This document shows positions 1 to 6,663 of a stretch of 6,940 nucleotides of DNA, one piece after another. This DNA comes from Desulfobacterales bacterium (GTDB lineage: Bacteria; Desulfobacterota; Desulfobacteria; Desulfobacterales; JAFDCJ01): contig CP070771.1 of assembly GCA_020345785.1 (NCBI GenBank), forward strand, positions 1,243,558-1,250,497. The letters run 5' to 3'. Every line of letters begins with the position of its first letter. The stretch's first letter is position 1. The notes under the pieces were generated by a model. The model did no database searches. It worked only from the letters and a program-made list of their open reading frames with translations, and was not told the DNA's origin. The position numbers and the translations under genes are program-made.

Positions 1-1088
1 AGGGCCGGATCAGTAAATGGTATGGCATGCGGCGTACCGGGGCCGCCCGCATGGCAGCCGGTAGCAGAGCCGTCGCTGTTGGTGAAATTCGCCGTAAAGC
101 AGCTTGGCGCATCCGGATGAGAGCCGGGGGCATCCGTCGTCACGTTGTGACAGACGGCACAGGCACTATCCAGTTTACCGGCCGTGCGGTGGCTTGACAG
201 ATAGTCGCCGGATGGATCATTGCTGCCCTGCCAGTTGGTCGGGTGGGCCCGCGCATCGGCGTGGCATTCAACCGACGAGCAGGAAGTCGAGGCGATCGCA
301 CCGTCAAACTGGATGGTGCCGACGGTACCGTGACACTGCTGGCAGGAAGTCAAATCAGCCTTGGCGTCTGCACCGTGTTGGCTTGCTTCAATATAAGGCA
401 GATTATGCGGGGCCGTGAATCCCGGGCCCTCGGCATGACATCCGGTCGTGATGCCGTCACGGTTGGTAAAACTTGCCGAAAAACAACTCGGCGCATCAGG
501 GCTTGGGCCTGAGCCGGATCCATTGGTTTTGTGACACAGGCTGCAGCTTGCATTGACCGTAGCCAGCGTTATGGATCGGTGGGTGGCGTCATAGGATGGG
601 TCCCGATCATCATTGGTTCCCTGCCAGTTGGTGGGGTGCGCCCGGGCGGCTGGATGGCAGGCTTCGGCCGAACAGGAGCCGTTGGAATTGTTGAAATAGT
701 TTGGATCAGAAACGATACCGCCGTCAAAGTTGTTAAATGCCTCACCGTGACAGCCGCGGCATAGAAGCTGATTTGCTCTGGCAGCCGGCCCATGCTCCTG
801 GGGATCGGTATAAGGCAGGGAATGCACCGTAAAGGGCGGACCGCTCTCATGGCAGGCAAAGCAACCCGGCATCGGGTCGCCGTTACCGGCAAAGTCTGTG
901 CCGTGACAGGTTTTACAGCTTTGTAGATCGACCTCGGCGTCAGCGGCATGCATCAAAACAAAACCCGCCGGATGAGCCTGGTCGCTTCGCGGCGCATCCG
1001 TATTTGAGCTTGAACAGCCACCGATATAAAGAATCAAAAATATCGGAAGGAGTTTCATCAACCATGTAATTGTGATTTTTTCTTTCAT
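1..1088 (-). CDS. Large multihaem c-type cytochrome lipoprotein, C-terminus beyond the window
   Basis: The reading frame is open from the ATG at 1088 to the left edge, giving 362 residues of an incomplete protein. Residues 1-24 are a lipoprotein signal peptide ending in YIGG-C25, with Ser at +2, which fits outer-membrane sorting. Ten haem c sites are visible: CX2CH at 58, 76, 110, 182, 249 and 310; CX4CH at 139 and 270; and CX14CH at 202 and 330. The last two align with the plain CFACH at 76. From residue 76 the protein is built of ~127-residue tandem units (starting at C76, C202 and C330). Each complete unit has four haem sites and four conserved extra histidines (89/99/151/170 and 228/238/282/300), suited to be distal ligands. 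The CX4CH...CX2CH pair matches the Geobacter family known as GSu_C4xC__C2xCH. It starts six bases after the pentahaem gene, with a weak GAGAG upstream, so translational coupling is likely. The inferred role is electron transfer at or outside the outer membrane. Confidence 0.9.
   Translation of the reverse strand, partial: MKEKITITWLMKLLPIFLILYIGGCSSSNTDAPRSDQAHPAGFVLMHAADAEVDLQSCKTCHGTDFAGNGDPMPGCFACHESGPPFTVHSLPYTDPQEHGPAARANQLLCRGCHGEAFNNFDGGIVSDPNYFNNSNGSCSAEACHPAARAHPTNWQGTNDDRDPSYDATHRSITLATVNASCSLCHKTNGSGSGPSPDAPSCFSASFTNRDGITTGCHAEGPGFTAPHNLPYIEASQHGADAKADLTSCQQCHGTVGTIQFDGAIASTSCSSVECHADARAHPTNWQGSNDPSGDYLSSHRTAGKLDSACAVCHNVTTDAPGSHPDAPSCFTANFTNSDGSATGCHAGGPGTPHAIPFTDPA
51..101 (-). 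other. CX14CH candidate haem-binding motif, copy 2
   Basis: The encoded residues 330-346 read CFTANFTNSDGSATGCH. The motif sits in the third tandem unit, where the first unit has CFACH, and it is followed by the same GPG...PHAIPF context. Fourteen residues separate the two cysteines. Haem attachment is inferred from the position and the conserved surroundings. Confidence 0.6.
435..485 (-). other. CX14CH candidate haem-binding motif, copy 1
   Basis: The encoded residues 202-218 read CFSASFTNRDGITTGCH. Its flanks (GPGFTAPHNLPY after, PDAPS before) match those of the second copy. The downstream flank also matches that of the plain CFACH site of unit 1 (SGPPFTVHSLPY). It therefore looks like a CX2CH site expanded by 12 residues between the cysteines. 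Confidence 0.6.
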
Positions 1089-1094
1089 TATCTC

Positions 1095-1562
1095 TCATCC
1101 ATGGCAACGCTTGCAGGTTTGGGCCGATTTAGGATTTCCATGACAGCGGTAGCAGGAAGTCGGGTTGATGCGACCGTCAATGACATGACGGGCAAGGTAA
1201 TCCCCGCGATGGGGCATACGACGGTAATTTTCAGTCTGATTCTTGATGGAGGGTTTCAGTTCAGTACCGACGCCATGGCAATCACTGCAATAACTCTCAC
1301 GATGGCAGGCGGCACAAACGGGACCGAATCTGCCGGCCACCGCCCCATGGTTTTCCCCAAAAAACATGCCGTGATTGAATTTTTCATAGGGAATTTCCGC
1401 CTCCTCCGTATCATGGCAATCCGTGCAAAAACGCAGATCCTCCCCGTCTTCTTCAGGGTGCCGGGGGGGTGGCGCATAACCGCTTTCGATCGTGGCACAG
1501 GCAGCTATCAGCACGACCAGCCAAACACTTACAATGAATCCCCATAATTTCCCATTTTTCAT
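1095..1562 (-). CDS. Pentahaem c-type cytochrome lipoprotein
   Basis: This is a 155-residue protein. I chose the ATG at 1562 because AGGAAGG lies five bases before it; a TTG at 1583 would add seven residues but has no such site. Residues 1-21 are a lipoprotein signal peptide (lipobox LIAA-C22, Ala at +2, compatible with outer-membrane localisation). Five CX2CH motifs bind haem c: C46TDCH, C83AACH, C92SDCH, C137YRCH and C150KRCH. There are exactly five other histidines (35, 64, 72, 118, 126), enough for bis-histidine coordination of every haem. The last motif ends one residue before the C-terminus. It lies between the beta-barrel gene and the large cytochrome and is six bases from the latter. 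It probably relays electrons within or on the barrel. It resembles in layout the small lipoprotein cytochromes of Geobacter outer-membrane conduits, but I cannot assign a specific ortholog. Confidence 0.92.
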   Translation of the reverse strand: MKNGKLWGFIVSVWLVVLIAACATIESGYAPPPRHPEEDGEDLRFCTDCHDTEEAEIPYEKFNHGMFFGENHGAVAGRFGPVCAACHRESYCSDCHGVGTELKPSIKNQTENYRRMPHRGDYLARHVIDGRINPTSCYRCHGNPKSAQTCKRCHG

Positions 1563-1596
1563 ATCTGCCTTCCTGATAGTCAAATTAGGCCTTTCT

Positions 1597-1876: not shown

Positions 1877-3427
1877 TTAATAGTTGTATTCGATTTTAAG
1901 CAGCCCGCGCAGATCCGATTCAAAATAAGGATCATTACTCCAATCTCCCGAAAGCTTGACCTGCAAAGCATCATCGAGAAATCGCCATCCGCCGCCCAGT
2001 GAAATCCACAGAGATGAGTCATGTCCATAGATGTTTTCGTCATAAAGGACATAGATGGCGTCGCCGGTGATAGATCCCAGCCGCGACAGGTTGGCCGGCA
2101 TGTCCCAGTAGAAAAAAGCTCTGGTCATCAAATAGCGGGTCGCATTGGTATCTCCGTTCATACGGCCGAGCTGTCCCCCGATCTGGGTCTGGTCGGTCAT
2201 ATACCAGCTGGCATTGCCTTCAACGTAAAGGGCCGGATCCTCCCTTAGATCATAATCAAAGTAGTTGACTTTGGCGCCCAGATCCACGCGGCTGAATCGA
2301 CGCCAGATGACCTCACTGCCCAGTATGGATAGGATTTCACCGGTGTCGGCCAGAAGACGAAAGGGATTGGCGCTGTTATCCTTGGTGTTAAAATAGTCTT
2401 CATAGCGATAGCGCTCATAGAACGGTCGAAAATAGAGATTGGAAATATCAAAACGAATTTCGTAGGAATGCGCGCCCCAGCCTTTGGTGTCCAGATTGTA
2501 AGAGGAAGATCCGATAAAGTTAATTTTGAACGGCAAGGCTGCAACAATGTCCAAGCCCGCCAATTCTTCGTCTTTTTCACTATCGCTGTATTTCTTTTTA
2601 TAGGAAACTCCGATTTCGTATTCCGCACCCTGGTGGCCCGCAACTCGGCCGCCATAGATGCCGTCCCCCGAGCGGCCTGGCTCCGAAGAAAGTCCCACCG
2701 GCGAACCGCCGAATACGGAAAATTTGAAATGGGGCGTCAGAGCGCTTTGAAGCCCGATTCCGTCTATGCTGTTGTTGATGATGCCGGTCATTAAATGCTG
2801 GCGTCCGAGTTTTATATTGAGGCCGTAATCCGGCTGGTTGTATTCCAGATAGCCGTATAGCAAATCAGCATCGGGATTATCATCGTAAAAGCCGCTGTGG
2901 TTAAAATCGTAACGGCCCCAACCGTAAAAGTGAAAGGATAGTCCCTCTTGATCCAAAGCGCCTAAATCCATCCGCAAGTATTCATAGCCGGCTAAAACGA
3001 GAGAATCATTCTCACTGTCCGTATCCCTTCTAAAAGCCCGTATGAAAGTTTCAGAAGATACTTCCACCCTGTACTGTGCTTCATTATCTTCATCTTCATT
3101 TTCTTCATTAGTACTTTCTTCAGCGCTATTCTCTTCACCACTATTTGCCGCTTCAGTAGATAGTTCAACATGGCCGGTGTCGTCCTGGGCGTTGACCTGA
3201 GAACCGCTGTCTGATGCTTCGCTCGGCGTATCGGTTGTATTTTTCTTTTCTTTTAATTTCTTGAGTAGCTTCTCATACTCTTCTGCTGAAATCAGATTGC
3301 CCTTCAGGTCATAATAATAAGTTTGGCCGGCCTGCAGATTGGAAGAATATGCCAACATCCATGTCGCCAAGAGCACGCTGAAACAACCGACTAAAATATT
3401 TTCCAATCTCAATTTCTTTATGTTCAT
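1877..3427 (-). CDS. Outer-membrane beta-barrel, putative porin partner of the cytochromes
   Basis: This is a 516-residue protein. Residues 1-33 are a Sec signal peptide with cleavage after LQA. A short segment (37-62, YYYDLKGNLIS... then a Lys-rich helix) leads into a strongly acidic, low-complexity linker (about 63-118, rich in E, D, S and N). From about 119 to the end the sequence alternates aromatic/aliphatic and polar residues in beta-strand fashion, with many Y, F, W and G. It ends ...L-K-I-E-Y-N-Y, the alternating pattern with a terminal aromatic that the outer-membrane insertion machinery recognises. The mature protein has no cysteine and no haem motif. Being first in a unit with two multihaem lipoproteins suggests it is the sheath of an electron conduit. 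The barrel class is an inference; it is not a recognisable close relative of MtrB. GAGG lies 11 bases before the ATG. A sigma-54 promoter precedes the gene. Confidence 0.8.
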   Translation of the reverse strand: MNIKKLRLENILVGCFSVLLATWMLAYSSNLQAGQTYYYDLKGNLISAEEYEKLLKKLKEKKNTTDTPSEASDSGSQVNAQDDTGHVELSTEAANSGEENSAEESTNEENEDEDNEAQYRVEVSSETFIRAFRRDTDSENDSLVLAGYEYLRMDLGALDQEGLSFHFYGWGRYDFNHSGFYDDNPDADLLYGYLEYNQPDYGLNIKLGRQHLMTGIINNSIDGIGLQSALTPHFKFSVFGGSPVGLSSEPGRSGDGIYGGRVAGHQGAEYEIGVSYKKKYSDSEKDEELAGLDIVAALPFKINFIGSSSYNLDTKGWGAHSYEIRFDISNLYFRPFYERYRYEDYFNTKDNSANPFRLLADTGEILSILGSEVIWRRFSRVDLGAKVNYFDYDLREDPALYVEGNASWYMTDQTQIGGQLGRMNGDTNATRYLMTRAFFYWDMPANLSRLGSITGDAIYVLYDENIYGHDSSLWISLGGGWRFLDDALQVKLSGDWSNDPYFESDLRGLLKIEYNY

Positions 3428-3513
3428 CGAACGTCGTTCCTCGTCATCTAAGTCTCAAATCAACCAGAAAAAGGCCTATATCCGACAAATTTTATATGAA
3501 ATTATATGAAGTC

Positions 3514-3529
3514 AGCAAAATTTATGCCA
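3514..3529 (-). promoter_or_regulatory. Sigma-54 (-24/-12) promoter of the barrel-cytochrome unit
   Basis: On the minus strand the sequence is TGGCATAAATTTTGCT. It matches the RpoN consensus TGGCACRNNNNTTGCW at every defined position except one (T for C at position 6), with the correct 10-bp GG-to-GC spacing. Transcription would start near 3503, leaving a leader of about 76 bases before the barrel ATG. Such promoters require an ATP-dependent enhancer-binding activator, so the electron-transfer genes are probably switched on by a specific signal. No activator gene is in the window. Confidence 0.8.
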
Positions 3530-3623
3530 TTTATTTTTGAGCTGCTATTTCCCGGACCATGGAAAAAATGGGAAATCTAAATAATTCAGCAAGATAAAAA
3601 TTTAAGCGTTAAAGAATAAAAAC

Positions 3624-3640
3624 GGGACGATTTGGGACGA
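3624..3640. promoter_or_regulatory. Tandem heptamer, candidate activator binding site
   Basis: GGGACGATTTGGGACGA holds two identical GGGACGA words exactly 10 bp apart, so both lie on the same DNA face. Its centre is about 130 bp upstream of the predicted sigma-54 start. This is the usual distance for an enhancer-binding activator site. The binding protein is unknown. Confidence 0.45.
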
Positions 3641-3716
3641 AAAAAGATCAGATGATGCATTTCCCCGACTGAAAAGACCACTATGTTGTATCTTTTATCA
3701 GACATTTCCTCGGTTT

Positions 3717-3751
3717 TTATGACAGCTTTCAGTTAGCTTTACCTGTCATAA
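3717..3751. promoter_or_regulatory. Perfect 9-bp inverted repeat, candidate operator
   Basis: TTATGACAG (3717-3725) is mirrored by CTGTCATAA (3743-3751) with 17 bases between, so the half-site centres are 26 bp apart. It lies about 230 bp upstream of the predicted sigma-54 start and 270 bp before the STAS-like gene. It could be a dimer binding site for either promoter, or a hairpin. Confidence 0.45.
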
Positions 3752-3956
3752 CGTTTCAGGAAGCGAATTTTATCCGTGCTAATTTATTTTTTTTAAAAAA
3801 CGGCCTTACCCATACATCTTCTTAGGGACGGGGGAAACCATTGTCGGCCTGCCGGTCGACACTACTCACGCAGCGTGCAGCGAGGCATCATTGGACGAAA
3901 TTTGGGTCCCTTGGGATCTGCTGAGTTATTTGGTGGGAATTATGGATACAGATAAC

Positions 3957-3987
3957 TTGACTTTATAACCAGAAATTATGATATATA
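3957..3987 (+). promoter_or_regulatory. Possible sigma-70-type promoter of the STAS-like gene
   Basis: A -35-like TTGACT at 3957-3962 is followed by TATGAT (14-bp spacing) and TATATA (19-bp spacing). Neither spacing is ideal, so the -10 element is uncertain. The start would fall about 25-35 bases before the ATG. Confidence 0.35.
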
Positions 3988-4001
3988 TAACTTAATTTTA
4001 T

Positions 4002-4013
4002 AAGGGGGGGGAG
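4002..4013 (+). promoter_or_regulatory. Ribosome binding site containing a G8 tract
   Basis: The sequence AA-G8-AG ends five bases before the ATG at 4019, and GGAG gives good Shine-Dalgarno complementarity. The eight consecutive G residues (4004-4011) are a homopolymer prone to slippage. Changes in length would shift SD spacing or strength. Confidence 0.7.
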
Positions 4014-4018
4014 TTATC

Positions 4019-4408
4019 ATGGCGGAGGATGTATACCCAATCGAGTTCGATAATTCTGTTGGACGCGCATATGTTAAATTAACCGGTGAGATCAATGCTG
4101 CGAAAATTCGTAATACTTTTCTTGCCATAGCAATGAATAAAAGTTGGGCTGACGGCGAGAGGAGTGTACTTTGGCAAACTGAAAATGCATTTTTACCTGA
4201 ATCATTTGAATTTTCAGATATTCTTAAAACAACACAGATAACCCAAGTTTTTACAAAACCGGGCAAGTCGGCTTTTGTTGTTGAAAAAAGTTCAGAAATG
4301 GAAAAAAAGGTAGCGAATTTTTATAAAAGCATTGCATCAACAACGACAGATAGAAAAATCGAAATATTTTTCAGTGAGAAAGAAGCGTTGGTTTGGCTTG
4401 ATAACTGA
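4019..4408 (+). CDS. SpoIIAA/STAS-like domain protein
   Basis: This is a 129-residue soluble protein with no signal peptide or membrane segment. The ATG is supported by a strong GGAG five bases upstream. The pattern fits the SpoIIAA-like family: an N-terminal beta-hairpin with GEI (23-25); a helix; a strand VLWQTENA (50-57); a helix containing FEFSDILKT (63-71); a strand SAFVVE (84-89); a helix MEKKVANFYKSI; and a C-terminal IEIFFSEKEALVWLD, the typical ending of such proteins. In the family the domain is an all-in-one alpha/beta fold. Its members are usually uncharacterised, and lipid or protein binding is suspected. It is the only gene in its apparent transcription unit; a weak terminator follows. 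Function here is unknown. Family assignment is by pattern recognition only. Confidence 0.75.
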   Translation: MAEDVYPIEFDNSVGRAYVKLTGEINAAKIRNTFLAIAMNKSWADGERSVLWQTENAFLPESFEFSDILKTTQITQVFTKPGKSAFVVEKSSEMEKKVANFYKSIASTTTDRKIEIFFSEKEALVWLDN

Positions 4409-4723
4409 ATTTCCTTTGCCATTCGACAATGTCGCTGTTTTTTAGAGCAGACCGCGCTCCAATATATATTGATGTAGATGCCTGAATAAGGAAATTGAAT
4501 TTTTTTTCATTTTGAATTTATGAAAGGATTCTTTATTTTAGTTTGAAAAACGCTGATCAGGAGTTGAGGTGCCGGGGTGATATTTCGGGAATTTAAGAGT
4601 TAAAAAGCCAGCTTGATGGCGGATATTAAAGTAGGGCATTAAAAGCCTACGAATCTTTATTGCCGACCAGTTAGCTATCACCGGATTTGACCTCCGGGGT
4701 TGCCTCCGATAAAGCAAACCTTC
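4409..4723 (+). other. Gene-free spacer with small hairpins
   Basis: This 315-bp stretch has no convincing frame. It holds the weak terminator listed separately and two small inverted repeats. GTAGGGC/GCCTAC at 4631-4650 has one bulged G, and CCGGA/TCCGG at 4681-4697 has a 7-base loop and lies just before the cysteine-rich gene. I recognise no riboswitch or known small RNA. Confidence 0.4.
4424..4443 (+). terminator. Weak candidate terminator after the STAS-like gene
   Basis: CGAC and GTCG around a 3-base loop are followed after three bases by T6. The stem is only 4 bp, so its strength is doubtful. Its position, 16 bases after the stop codon, is appropriate. Confidence 0.35.
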
Positions 4724-4930
4724 ATGGAATGTCAGATTTGCGGTCAGGGATGCAACAGACGGTCAAAAGTGTTTACCGAGGGCAAGAAGTTCCTTGCCTG
4801 CCGGAAATGCGTATGCAAGTTGCGCACGCATGAGCTTTTTTACTGCGAATGCTGCACCAAATACCATTTTGACAGGAAACAGCCGCTTGAGGAAACCTAC
4901 AGCAGGCAATCATTCTTTCCCGGAAATTAA
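4724..4930 (+). CDS. Small cysteine-rich putative zinc-binding protein
   Basis: This 68-residue product starts at the ATG at 4724 (MECQICGQGC). A TTG at 4700 in the same frame would add eight residues. Neither start has a clear Shine-Dalgarno sequence. Nine cysteines are arranged as C3-X2-C6-X3-C10, then C26-X2-C29-X-C31, then C41-X-C43-C44, followed by H48. CXXC pairs at 3/6, 26/29 and 41/44 suggest a zinc ribbon or treble-clef knuckle, possibly with two metal sites. It has no signal peptide and a basic middle (RRSK, KK, RK, KLR), so nucleic-acid binding is possible but unproven. I do not recognise the family. The regular cysteine pattern argues for a real protein, but its small size and missing ribosome binding site leave doubt. 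Confidence 0.5.
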   Translation: MECQICGQGCNRRSKVFTEGKKFLACRKCVCKLRTHELFYCECCTKYHFDRKQPLEETYSRQSFFPGN

Positions 4931-4973
4931 AACAATCGAGGGAATGGGTGGTTTGTAAAAGGGTAATTGCTAT

Positions 4974-5156
4974 TTTATACATAAAATCGGAAAACCTTGC
5001 ATGTTTCGAACCAAAGAAGCCCCACAGGACTCCAGCTAAAATCAGAAAGATTACAAAATAGCCTAAATTTATATGCAGATTCTTAAAATCGTCTCCGGTC
5101 AGAAACATGCCGATTATGCAGCCAACCAATGCCCAATGAAAAATTCTAAATTCAAT
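4974..5156 (-). pseudogene. Cytochrome b561-family remnant, N-terminal part only
   Basis: In the frame starting at an ATT at 5156 the sequence reads KIEFRIFHWALVGC, then a TM helix, FLTGD, NLHINLGY, a second TM helix, LWGFFGSKHARFSDF. This is the hallmark of the first ~60 residues of bacterial di-haem cytochrome b561 (hydrogenase cytochrome b-like) proteins. It includes the haem-ligand histidines of helix I (FHW) and helix II (LHINLGY). Similarity stops after SDFMYK near 4974. The frame then runs on without sense, so helices III-IV and their ligands are missing. No ATG/GTG/TTG precedes the FHW motif; a TTG at 5129 would start inside helix I and lose its histidine. The remnant overlaps the stop codon of the nuclease gene by a few bases, which suggests a deletion junction there. 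Confidence 0.75.
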
Positions 5157-6663
5157 CTTGAGTATCGATCAGGTTCTCTATTCCCTCTTTCAACACCATC
5201 GTAGCTTTGCAATCATCCTCGTTATAAGTAAGCAAGCGCTGGAGTATTTTCTCGTCTTTGGTATCAATGAATTCATTGAACCATTGGATCGACAGCGCTC
5301 CGGACGGAGTTTCGTCCTGCCAGCTAAAACCAAGATACTGTGCCAAATCTTTGAGCGAGTAGCTGGATAGCGGCCAGTCGGTATGTTTTTTGACGATGTC
5401 ATAGAGATCGATTACGTAAGGATGAGCGAAAAACGAATCCAGCTCGGCCTCGCTTATTACTTCCGGATAGATTTTTTGCATCCTCCGGTAGGTGGTTTTT
5501 TCGTGGTGGGAATAATAATATACGGCGAAATCATCCGGCGGCAGCGACCGGATAAAGCTCCAGAAATCCTGCCAGGCCTGTCTTTCGGCTTCGCGCGTTA
5601 ATTCAACCGCAGTGAAGTCCTTGTATTCCTCCCCGTCCGGTCCCTTGATATAGACACCGTGCATGTAAACGAATTCCTGGGTGGGGTCGTCCTCGATATC
5701 GAAATAGAGTTCATAGCCTACTCGCGGGAATTGGAAGTTGGCATAAGCTACCGGTTTTTTGGTTTCGACAAGGACTTTAGCCCGCCTTAGGATCTCGACC
5801 AGGGTCTTTTCGCCTACGCCGTATAGGAACTCTCTGTTCCTGTCTTTTGCGCGCATAACCTCTTTTATGTCAACGCACAGGATATCGGTAATTTTCTCGA
5901 TCCCGAGGTCCTTATTGATCCGGTCGCGGCGGTTGCGGCCGAGATAGAATATTTTAGTAAGATCGCCGGATTCATCAACCCATTTTTTGCAGCTTAAGTA
6001 CCACGGGCACAGTTTGCAGATGCCGACCAGCGCCGGTTTGTTCCTGACCTCGCCGGTTATGAGAAGCTCAACATCGTTTTTTACCTGTTCGTAATGCTGC
6101 CATAGTGTCCGGGAATCGCGCCTCCCGAGCGATCGGTTGAGATTGTACTCGACCTCTTCTGTCCGGATATCTATTACCCGGCCTAATCGCCGGTTTTCAA
6201 AACCGAGCTTATTCAAAAGCTCCGAATAAAGGGCGATCTGGACCGCGTAGTGTTTTTTCAGCCTGCCGGGGTCGCCCTCCTCCTCGTCCACACCTTCGAA
6301 GCCGCGGCCAGACTTGATCTCGATCGGCACATATTGCCCGTCCGGTAAAAGCTTCAAAAGATCGGGGATGCCGACCATGTTTTCATAAATTAAAACCCCC
6401 TGGTAAATAAGGGAAGTTTTTTCTTTCATGGCGCTGATTGTTTGCTTGAATCGATCTTCGTACGGGCCCGGCTGCAGATTGAGGAATTCACCCAGATTGG
6501 ATACGACCTGTTCTTCGTGGGCTATTCCCCGCTCCCACAGGAGTTGGACAAAGGGGTTGGTTTCTTTTATTTTCTCGTCTTGGGGGCCGTATATATCCCG
6601 CCAGACGCGGTGCGGGCACTGCGTGTAATCGTAGAGTTTGGCGGCGGTGATGTGTGGGGTCAT
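5152..6663 (-). CDS. TM0106-family RecB-like nuclease / RNase H-like exonuclease fusion
   Basis: This 503-residue protein is full length for the family. The N-terminal Cas4/RecB-like PD-(D/E)XK domain (about 1-228) shows H49, the metal-binding GIPD101 and E115-I-K117, and the QxxxY motif (Q142...Y146). It has four cysteines laid out as in Cas4-type Fe-S nucleases: C16 near the N-terminus, and C216, C219 and C225 after the catalytic core. A linking region (about 245-300: DLGIEKITDIL..., GVGEKTLVEIL) looks like helix-hairpin-helix DNA-binding segments. The C-terminal RNase H-like (YprB/DnaQ-type) domain begins with FDIED (322-325). It continues with YYSHHE (384-388), VIDLYDI (D419), SYSLKDLAQYLG and YNEDD (480-484), supplying the acidic residues of a 3'-5' exonuclease. 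No CRISPR genes are nearby. The role is inferred to be DNA repair or processing; it is uncharacterised in this family. The ATG at 6663 lacks a clear ribosome binding site. Confidence 0.88.
   Translation of the reverse strand: MTPHITAAKLYDYTQCPHRVWRDIYGPQDEKIKETNPFVQLLWERGIAHEEQVVSNLGEFLNLQPGPYEDRFKQTISAMKEKTSLIYQGVLIYENMVGIPDLLKLLPDGQYVPIEIKSGRGFEGVDEEEGDPGRLKKHYAVQIALYSELLNKLGFENRRLGRVIDIRTEEVEYNLNRSLGRRDSRTLWQHYEQVKNDVELLITGEVRNKPALVGICKLCPWYLSCKKWVDESGDLTKIFYLGRNRRDRINKDLGIEKITDILCVDIKEVMRAKDRNREFLYGVGEKTLVEILRRAKVLVETKKPVAYANFQFPRVGYELYFDIEDDPTQEFVYMHGVYIKGPDGEEYKDFTAVELTREAERQAWQDFWSFIRSLPPDDFAVYYYSHHEKTTYRRMQKIYPEVISEAELDSFFAHPYVIDLYDIVKKHTDWPLSSYSLKDLAQYLGFSWQDETPSGALSIQWFNEFIDTKDEKILQRLLTYNEDDCKATMVLKEGIENLIDTQD

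Follow-up and report, generated by a model that had tools for sequence, protein, structure and literature searches.

Recurrent CX14CH motifs at a CX2CH slot of a multihaem cytochrome encoded beside a probable porin in a Desulfobacterales bacterium

The cytochrome locus and its ten CXnCH sites

The window, by which we mean the whole 6,940-nucleotide stretch of Desulfobacterales DNA that was analysed, carries on its minus strand the genes for a large multihaem cytochrome c, a smaller pentahaem cytochrome and a probable outer-membrane beta-barrel protein. These are given below with the paired sites of the large cytochrome, which were taken from a site listing of the window protein and run from its N-terminus onwards.

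3..1088, minus strand: open reading frame for the N-terminal 362 aa of a large multihaem cytochrome c lipoprotein, the C-terminus of which lies off the window
1014..1016, minus strand: lipobox cysteine C25 (LYIGGC-SSS, recognised by eye), the sole cysteine outside the paired sites
903..917, minus strand: CKTCH, a CX2CH site
849..863, minus strand: CFACH, a CX2CH site in the D-site slot of unit 1 (C76-H80)
747..761, minus strand: CRGCH, a CX2CH site
654..674, minus strand: CSAEACH, a CX4CH site
531..545, minus strand: CSLCH, a CX2CH site
435..485, minus strand: first CX14CH site, CFSASFTNRDGITTGCH (C202, C217, H218), also marked by conservation and a predicted hairpin
330..344, minus strand: CQQCH, a CX2CH site
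261..281, minus strand: CSSVECH, a CX4CH site
147..161, minus strand: CAVCH, a CX2CH site
51..101, minus strand: second CX14CH site, CFTANFTNSDGSATGCH (C330, C345, H346), also marked by a predicted hairpin
1095..1583, minus strand: open reading frame for a pentahaem CX2CH cytochrome, with a Cytochrome_C7 match and, by eye, a signal resembling a lipobox
1877..3427, minus strand: open reading frame for a probable outer-membrane beta-barrel protein (porin) of 516 aa, a conserved neighbour ending in EYNY

Profile searches placed Cytochrom_CIII and Cytochrome_C7 (PF02085 and PF14522) above the Pfam cut-offs in the large cytochrome, which has the make-up of a multihaem c-type cytochrome, with ten CXnCH sites behind a lipobox-type export signal (the signal being recognised by eye). 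All 21 of its cysteines are accounted for, twenty by the ten sites and one by the lipobox, leaving none spare. The relatives L001 and L002 have full-length open reading frames of 829 and 822 aa. The database copy of the window protein (P0001) is 363 aa long (compare window positions 1-2), and the gene may therefore end at the record's own edge and not only at that of the window. Plasmid records yielded no match.

As the initial annotation had proposed, both CX14CH sites stand where unit 1 has CFACH, the flanks agreeing in GPP or GPG ahead of the site and in VHSLPY, PHNLPY or PHAIPF behind it; this positional correspondence is directly observed. Chance was tried as the origin of the two motifs and rejected. 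When the protein was shuffled 20,000 times, 15 of the resulting sequences had at least two C[^C]14CH matches, making chance a poor explanation even before the matching repeat position of the two sites is counted.

Elsewhere in the window, positions 5152-6663 on the minus strand encode a RecB-like putative nuclease of the TM0106 family (TIGR03491 at 229.8 bits, cut-off 97.45; also RNase_H_2) with no obvious tie to the cytochrome cluster. A cysteine-rich open reading frame of 76 aa at 4700-4930 on the plus strand, with several CxxC pairs and no Pfam or NCBIfam match, might be of the zinc-ribbon type.

The cysteine pair and its spacing in related proteins

A search of 5.8 billion proteins with the window protein returned 101 at E 0.001 or better, its own copy included. 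A second search, in which the CX9-bearing P0091 served as the query, returned 455 proteins, and the best 120 of these were used, yielding a joint set of 214 proteins. The D slot was assigned in the relatives by sequence pattern, and since these proteins share kinship their counts are not independent. The family is sparse, being found at E 1e-15 in 10 of 297 genomes from the phylum of the L001 genome (that one included); with G002, reached from a separate search, this makes 11 family-bearing genomes, in one of which (G137) the match sits at a contig start.

The upstream anchor was defined as P[SGT]C[FYLA] (PSC-type), from which a CH was sought within 21 residues, three anchors at sequence ends having been set aside before counting. 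All 202 untruncated anchors of the 101 proteins, the window's own included, ran into CH, with spacings of 14 (131 anchors), 2 (24), 9 (15), 4 (15) and 5 (7) and, more rarely, 16 (3), 6, 13 and 15 (2 each) and 3 (1). Approached from the downstream histidine, a paired site was found at 138 of 141 anchors in the same proteins; those lacking a CH within 14 residues belong to P0031 and P0076 (both just after the lipobox) and to P0096 (residue 332), and the D site can therefore be absent whole, not half. When the joint set of 214 proteins (including the best 120 of 455) was considered, the first cysteine was kept in 424 of 425 downstream-anchored CH sites, not all of which are D sites because the pattern also catches CX2 and CX4 sites of other slots. 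The single miss falls at residue 2 of a fragment, that is, at a fragment end. The same joint set holds a CX19CH site in P0207, the spacings observed overall being 2-6, 9, 13-16 and 19. In the fetched loci of the 11 genomes, 33 of 34 anchors led to CH; the one that did not is a cysteine of lipobox type in L030, and no anchor was seen in the fetched locus of G137. Several spacings occupy the D slot within one protein, namely CX2, CX9 and CX14 in L034 and CX5, CX9 and CX14 in L031 (slots by pattern).

Site counts left out those sites whose nearest upstream cysteine belongs to another CH, and four of the 101 proteins, whose CH had no cysteine in the preceding 20 residues, were omitted; no spare cysteine beyond residue 60 was present in 87 of the 97 proteins counted. 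The proposal that CX14CH occupies a CX2CH haem slot and is probably haem-bearing thus withstood comparison with the relatives: neither cysteine nor histidine is lost singly, so that free loss does not speak against it. Because both cysteines are kept while the gap between them varies widely, a haem-attachment motif that was supposed fixed looks, judging from these sequences, stretchable. Length varies likewise at the second site of the unit, where CX2, CX4 or CX5 precedes AHPTNW (P0025, P0028, P0029, P0038, P0045; P0005).

Loop sequence, haem attachment and maturation

The linker between the D-site cysteines is, by its sequence, variable yet not random. Across the 150 distinct CX14 loops of the joint set (including the best 120 of 455), the most frequent pattern reads C-[FY]-[SA]-A-x-F-T-N-[AS]-D-G-x-T-[TS]-x-C-H; loop position 7 is Asn in 148 of them, position 9 is Asp or Asn in 129, and position 10 is Gly in 116. 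The 93 distinct CX9 loops, drawn from every CX9 site in the joint set (again including the best 120 of 455) whatever its slot, most often follow C-F-S-A-S-F-[DN]-G-x-x-C-H. Beta-hairpins classically form their tight turns from sequences such as NxDG and [DN]G. N209 is invariant, as are C202, C217 and H218, in the 57-sequence alignment used for AlphaFold, which comprised the window protein and 56 of the 100 other proteins (P0002-P0058 without P0012). The resulting haem-free model shows short strands at 207-208/214-215 and 335-336/342-343, i.e. a predicted hairpin in each CX14 loop; the ten-residue blocks of the loops have pLDDT values of 84, 79, 80 and 78, in a model that is middling as a whole (mean pLDDT 68.1, pTM 0.44). 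For the CX9 relative P0174, the predicted structure (mean pLDDT 58.3, CX9 loop below 50) was too poor to judge a hairpin. Comparison of the window model with PDB folds gave no match at E 0.001 or better, one match standing at E 6.3, and a second look was empty. The conserved hairpin sequence suggests a structural or binding role: most likely the loop either packs units against one another or docks an acceptor or partner.

The initial annotation had counted four non-motif histidines for the four sites of each complete unit. This stands for the window's one complete unit, but in the second unit, which is incomplete, H324 is an additional histidine, and four per unit is therefore a minimum in the examined set, not a rule. 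Among 114 complete CX14 units from the 214 proteins (including the best 120 of 455), none had fewer than four non-motif histidines, the numbers being four in 82, five in 24, six in 7 and seven in 1. Over whole proteins, non-motif histidines equalled or outnumbered the sites in 94 of 97 and were fewer in 3. Short of proof, these counts agree with bis-His ligation of all the haems, among them that of the CX14 site.

On this evidence we consider it likely that the window protein is a lipid-anchored outer conduit cytochrome made of tandem four-haem units, the D site of which carries a true haem c on a cysteine pair split by a hairpin. The D-site thioether cysteines would be separated in the sequence by a folded beta-hairpin (CX14CH here, 2 to 19 residues in relatives) and should be neighbours in space, the haem being bound and bis-His ligated as at CX2CH; the hairpin would project from the haem edge and either pack between units or dock partners or electron acceptors. 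A simple account of the length variation would be that hairpins of various sizes were grafted between two cysteines that stay spatial neighbours. The sequence, its conservation, the gene neighbourhood and the hairpin prediction are what the analysis shows directly; the parts of this reading that we infer are haem attachment, the proximity of the cysteines, the function of the loop, the barrel nature of the neighbour and the location in the cell.

MccA had been named initially as a precedent for such a site. A closer one is OmcZ, a nanowire cytochrome of extracellular electron transfer in Geobacter sulfurreducens, where, according to the portion of PMC9473688 drawn on here, cryo-EM places haem 1 on a CX14CH motif (C77, C92, H93) of the same spacing as in the window, with the extra residues forming a loop. 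That 14-residue loop is located at the subunit interface in the same account (PMC9473688), and its removal is said, in a passage of PMC11208441, to suppress the reduction of soluble acceptors. The kind of motif is therefore already known. Unlike OmcZ, which has one such site in a filament subunit of eight haems, the window shows tandem recurrence in a lipoprotein encoded beside a probable porin.

Concerning maturation, the evidence for and against a dedicated lyase is mixed. If haem were attached only by an enzyme specialised for long-spaced motifs, there would be precedent in MccA and SirA, the long-spaced motifs of which need dedicated synthases, CcsA1 acting on CX15CH in Wolinella and SirEFG on SirA in Shewanella (as set out in parts of PMC6976685 and PMC12285233). 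Also in keeping with this explanation, hand counts of ResB gave a median of 3 in the 11 family-bearing genomes compared with 1 in 28 genomes taken from the 287 that had no match (Mann-Whitney P 0.002), and in G043 (locus L030) the place immediately upstream of a truncated family member is taken by CcsB-type and CcsA-type genes instead of the usual conduit neighbours. The ResB excess is not relied on here because the genomes may differ in completeness and in cytochrome richness, the counts were made by hand and some genes are possibly split over contigs (G129); the family bearers may simply be the ones rich in cytochromes. The L030 genes (PF05140, PF01578) occupy positions 6366-9373 on the plus strand, and the family member beside them, which is cut by the contig end, has visible spacings of 2, 2, 2 and 5. 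Against a dedicated lyase, G001, a draft MAG with three CX14CH sites, has a single ResB-CcsA pair and gave no CcmF match. Its two CcsA-like matches are on contigs C66 and C93 and the conduit is on C135; the second of these matches lies beside haem-synthesis-like open reading frames (by eye). No listed frame in the 11 genomes holds both ResB and CcsA domains among the PF05140 and PF01578 matches, and therefore no fused CcsBA was seen there. In the surroundings of the cytochrome genes of the window, and of the L001 and L002 loci, which were inspected by eye, no lyase could be recognised. Taking these observations together, we regard a strict need for a specialised lyase as rather unlikely. It is quite possible, and we advance it tentatively, that motif length is not fixed at all: hairpins giving n = 2 to 19 would have been grafted unit by unit, a general System II synthase would read the folded cysteine pair plus CH and not a linear CXXCH, and the loops would serve as exchangeable surface elements at the haem edge, for packing or acceptor docking.

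The remaining explanations do without the pair of thioethers. Single-thioether cytochromes exist, and by analogy with those of the AXXCH type only the CH cysteine might bind haem at the D site, the upstream cysteine being a leftover. A leftover would decay, whereas the upstream cysteine is present at 424 of the 425 sites (including the best 120 of 455) despite the changing spacing, which makes this explanation very improbable. The weakest, and in our view highly improbable, is a structural disulfide closing the loop of a haem-free CX14CH site: the loop does have a conserved pattern, a cysteine at each end and a predicted hairpin, but every untruncated upstream anchor reaches CH, the slot is CX2CH in unit 1, non-motif histidines never fall below four in the 114 four-site units with the CX14 site counted in (including the best 120 of 455), and OmcZ, as described in the portion of PMC9473688 already cited, binds haem at equal spacing.

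The conduit and its relation to known systems

For the 516-aa protein, nothing in Pfam or NCBIfam scored above a curated cut-off and no PDB sequence matched, one unrelated entry standing at E 0.73. Its homolog P0268 is named 'Alginate export domai...', and this name, the EYNY end and the conserved place indicate that the neighbour is probably a beta-barrel. By tblastn, 8 of the 11 related genomes have a homolog of the pentahaem protein next to the large cytochrome, and 7 of the 11 have a homolog of the porin-like protein there; a ninth genome, G287 (L034), has an adjacent five-site protein recognised by motif only. Because the probable porin and the pentahaem protein usually adjoin it, the large cytochrome probably forms the outer portion of a porin-cytochrome conduit, and the cluster contains both a probable outer lipoprotein cytochrome (C25, by eye) and a partner cytochrome. 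One source describes the relative P0174 as a putative multihaem cytochrome belonging to an 'extracellular electron transfer conduit cluster'. At the L001 locus of a Desulfosarcinaceae MAG, a further cytochrome of 713 aa with ten CX2CH motifs is encoded at 3123-5264 on the minus strand, just upstream of the conduit genes and on the opposite strand to them.

Porin-cytochrome conduits are known to carry electrons through the outer membrane, OetABI being described in the part of PMC10553843 used here and OmaB-OmbB-OmcB being named in PMC12545173. The window resembles both in gene arrangement, with a probable porin, cytochromes and a probable outer lipoprotein cytochrome (PMC10553843, in part), and differs from both in that its small partner is pentahaem with a lipobox-like signal and the order is probable porin, pentahaem cytochrome, large cytochrome. 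The window cytochrome would be the outer, lipid-anchored member of such a conduit for extracellular electron transfer. Going by what is known of these families, electrons would pass between periplasm and outside by way of the barrel, its pentahaem partner and the large cytochrome at the surface, the repeated four-haem units of which would form a wire.

Kinship to cytochromes of solved structure was sought with the window protein, a piece of it, profile A1, P0174 and a 62-position D-site profile, and was rejected, as only weak matches following CXXCH were returned. Among PDB sequences the window protein matched none at E up to 0.1; with the limit raised to E 10, profile A1 had five matches, the best being 28pb (E 0.0013, over a later part of the profile) and none being named OmcZ, which the searched copy may not hold. 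At the sensitivity of these same PDB searches (E up to 0.1 and up to 10, respectively), neither query showed a sequence relation to octahaem sulfite reductase; MccA is among the PDB entries. The MccA and SirA octahaem sulfite reductases share a long-spaced haem motif with the window protein (CX15CH and CX12NKGCH, in the part of PMC6976685 drawn on), and differ from it in being enzymes with one long-spaced site among eight haems and a dedicated lyase. The CX4CH sites are a likeness to the CxxxxCH/CxxCH cytochromes (TIGR01904, PF09698). The TIGR01904 cut-off was passed by three of five relatives tested (L001, L002 and P0012), L001 and L002 scoring 31.6 against 27 bits in their C-terminal part, while P0024 stayed below it (23.6 against 27) and P0084 had no match. 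The likeness does not extend to the CX14 unit, the match in L001 and L002 covering a C-terminal module; the truncated piece in the window had no TIGR01904 match, and PF09698 was below cut-off in L001 (17.3 against 21.7). Giant multihaem cytochromes of ANME, as presented in a portion of PMC9012536, likewise have multiple motifs with extra residues between the cysteines, one widened type being accompanied by a CcmF paralog; they differ in being archaeal, S-layer-linked and matured by a Ccm-type system. In view of these widened motifs, length variation as such is not wholly unprecedented (PMC9012536, in part). What appears to be new, on the sequences compared, is the tandem recurrence of CX14CH, its length-variable linker and its conserved loop sequence; in the open-access literature we found no report of tandem CX14CH, of a conserved NxDG hairpin or of a haem slot with spacings of 2 to 19.

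Haem counting and cytochrome annotation usually take CX2CH or slightly longer motifs, n = 2 to 5 being counted in PMC12545173, for example. More than five residues separate the cysteines in 184 of 1,337 paired, putatively haem-binding sites (14%; 101 proteins, all slots), and these would escape annotation limited to n = 2 to 5. With one slot bearing many linker lengths, sometimes within one protein, the family may offer a natural test of recognition by cytochrome c synthases, and CX14CH, a single site in the OmcZ nanowire, would also stand as a recurring design feature of a probable outer-membrane conduit.
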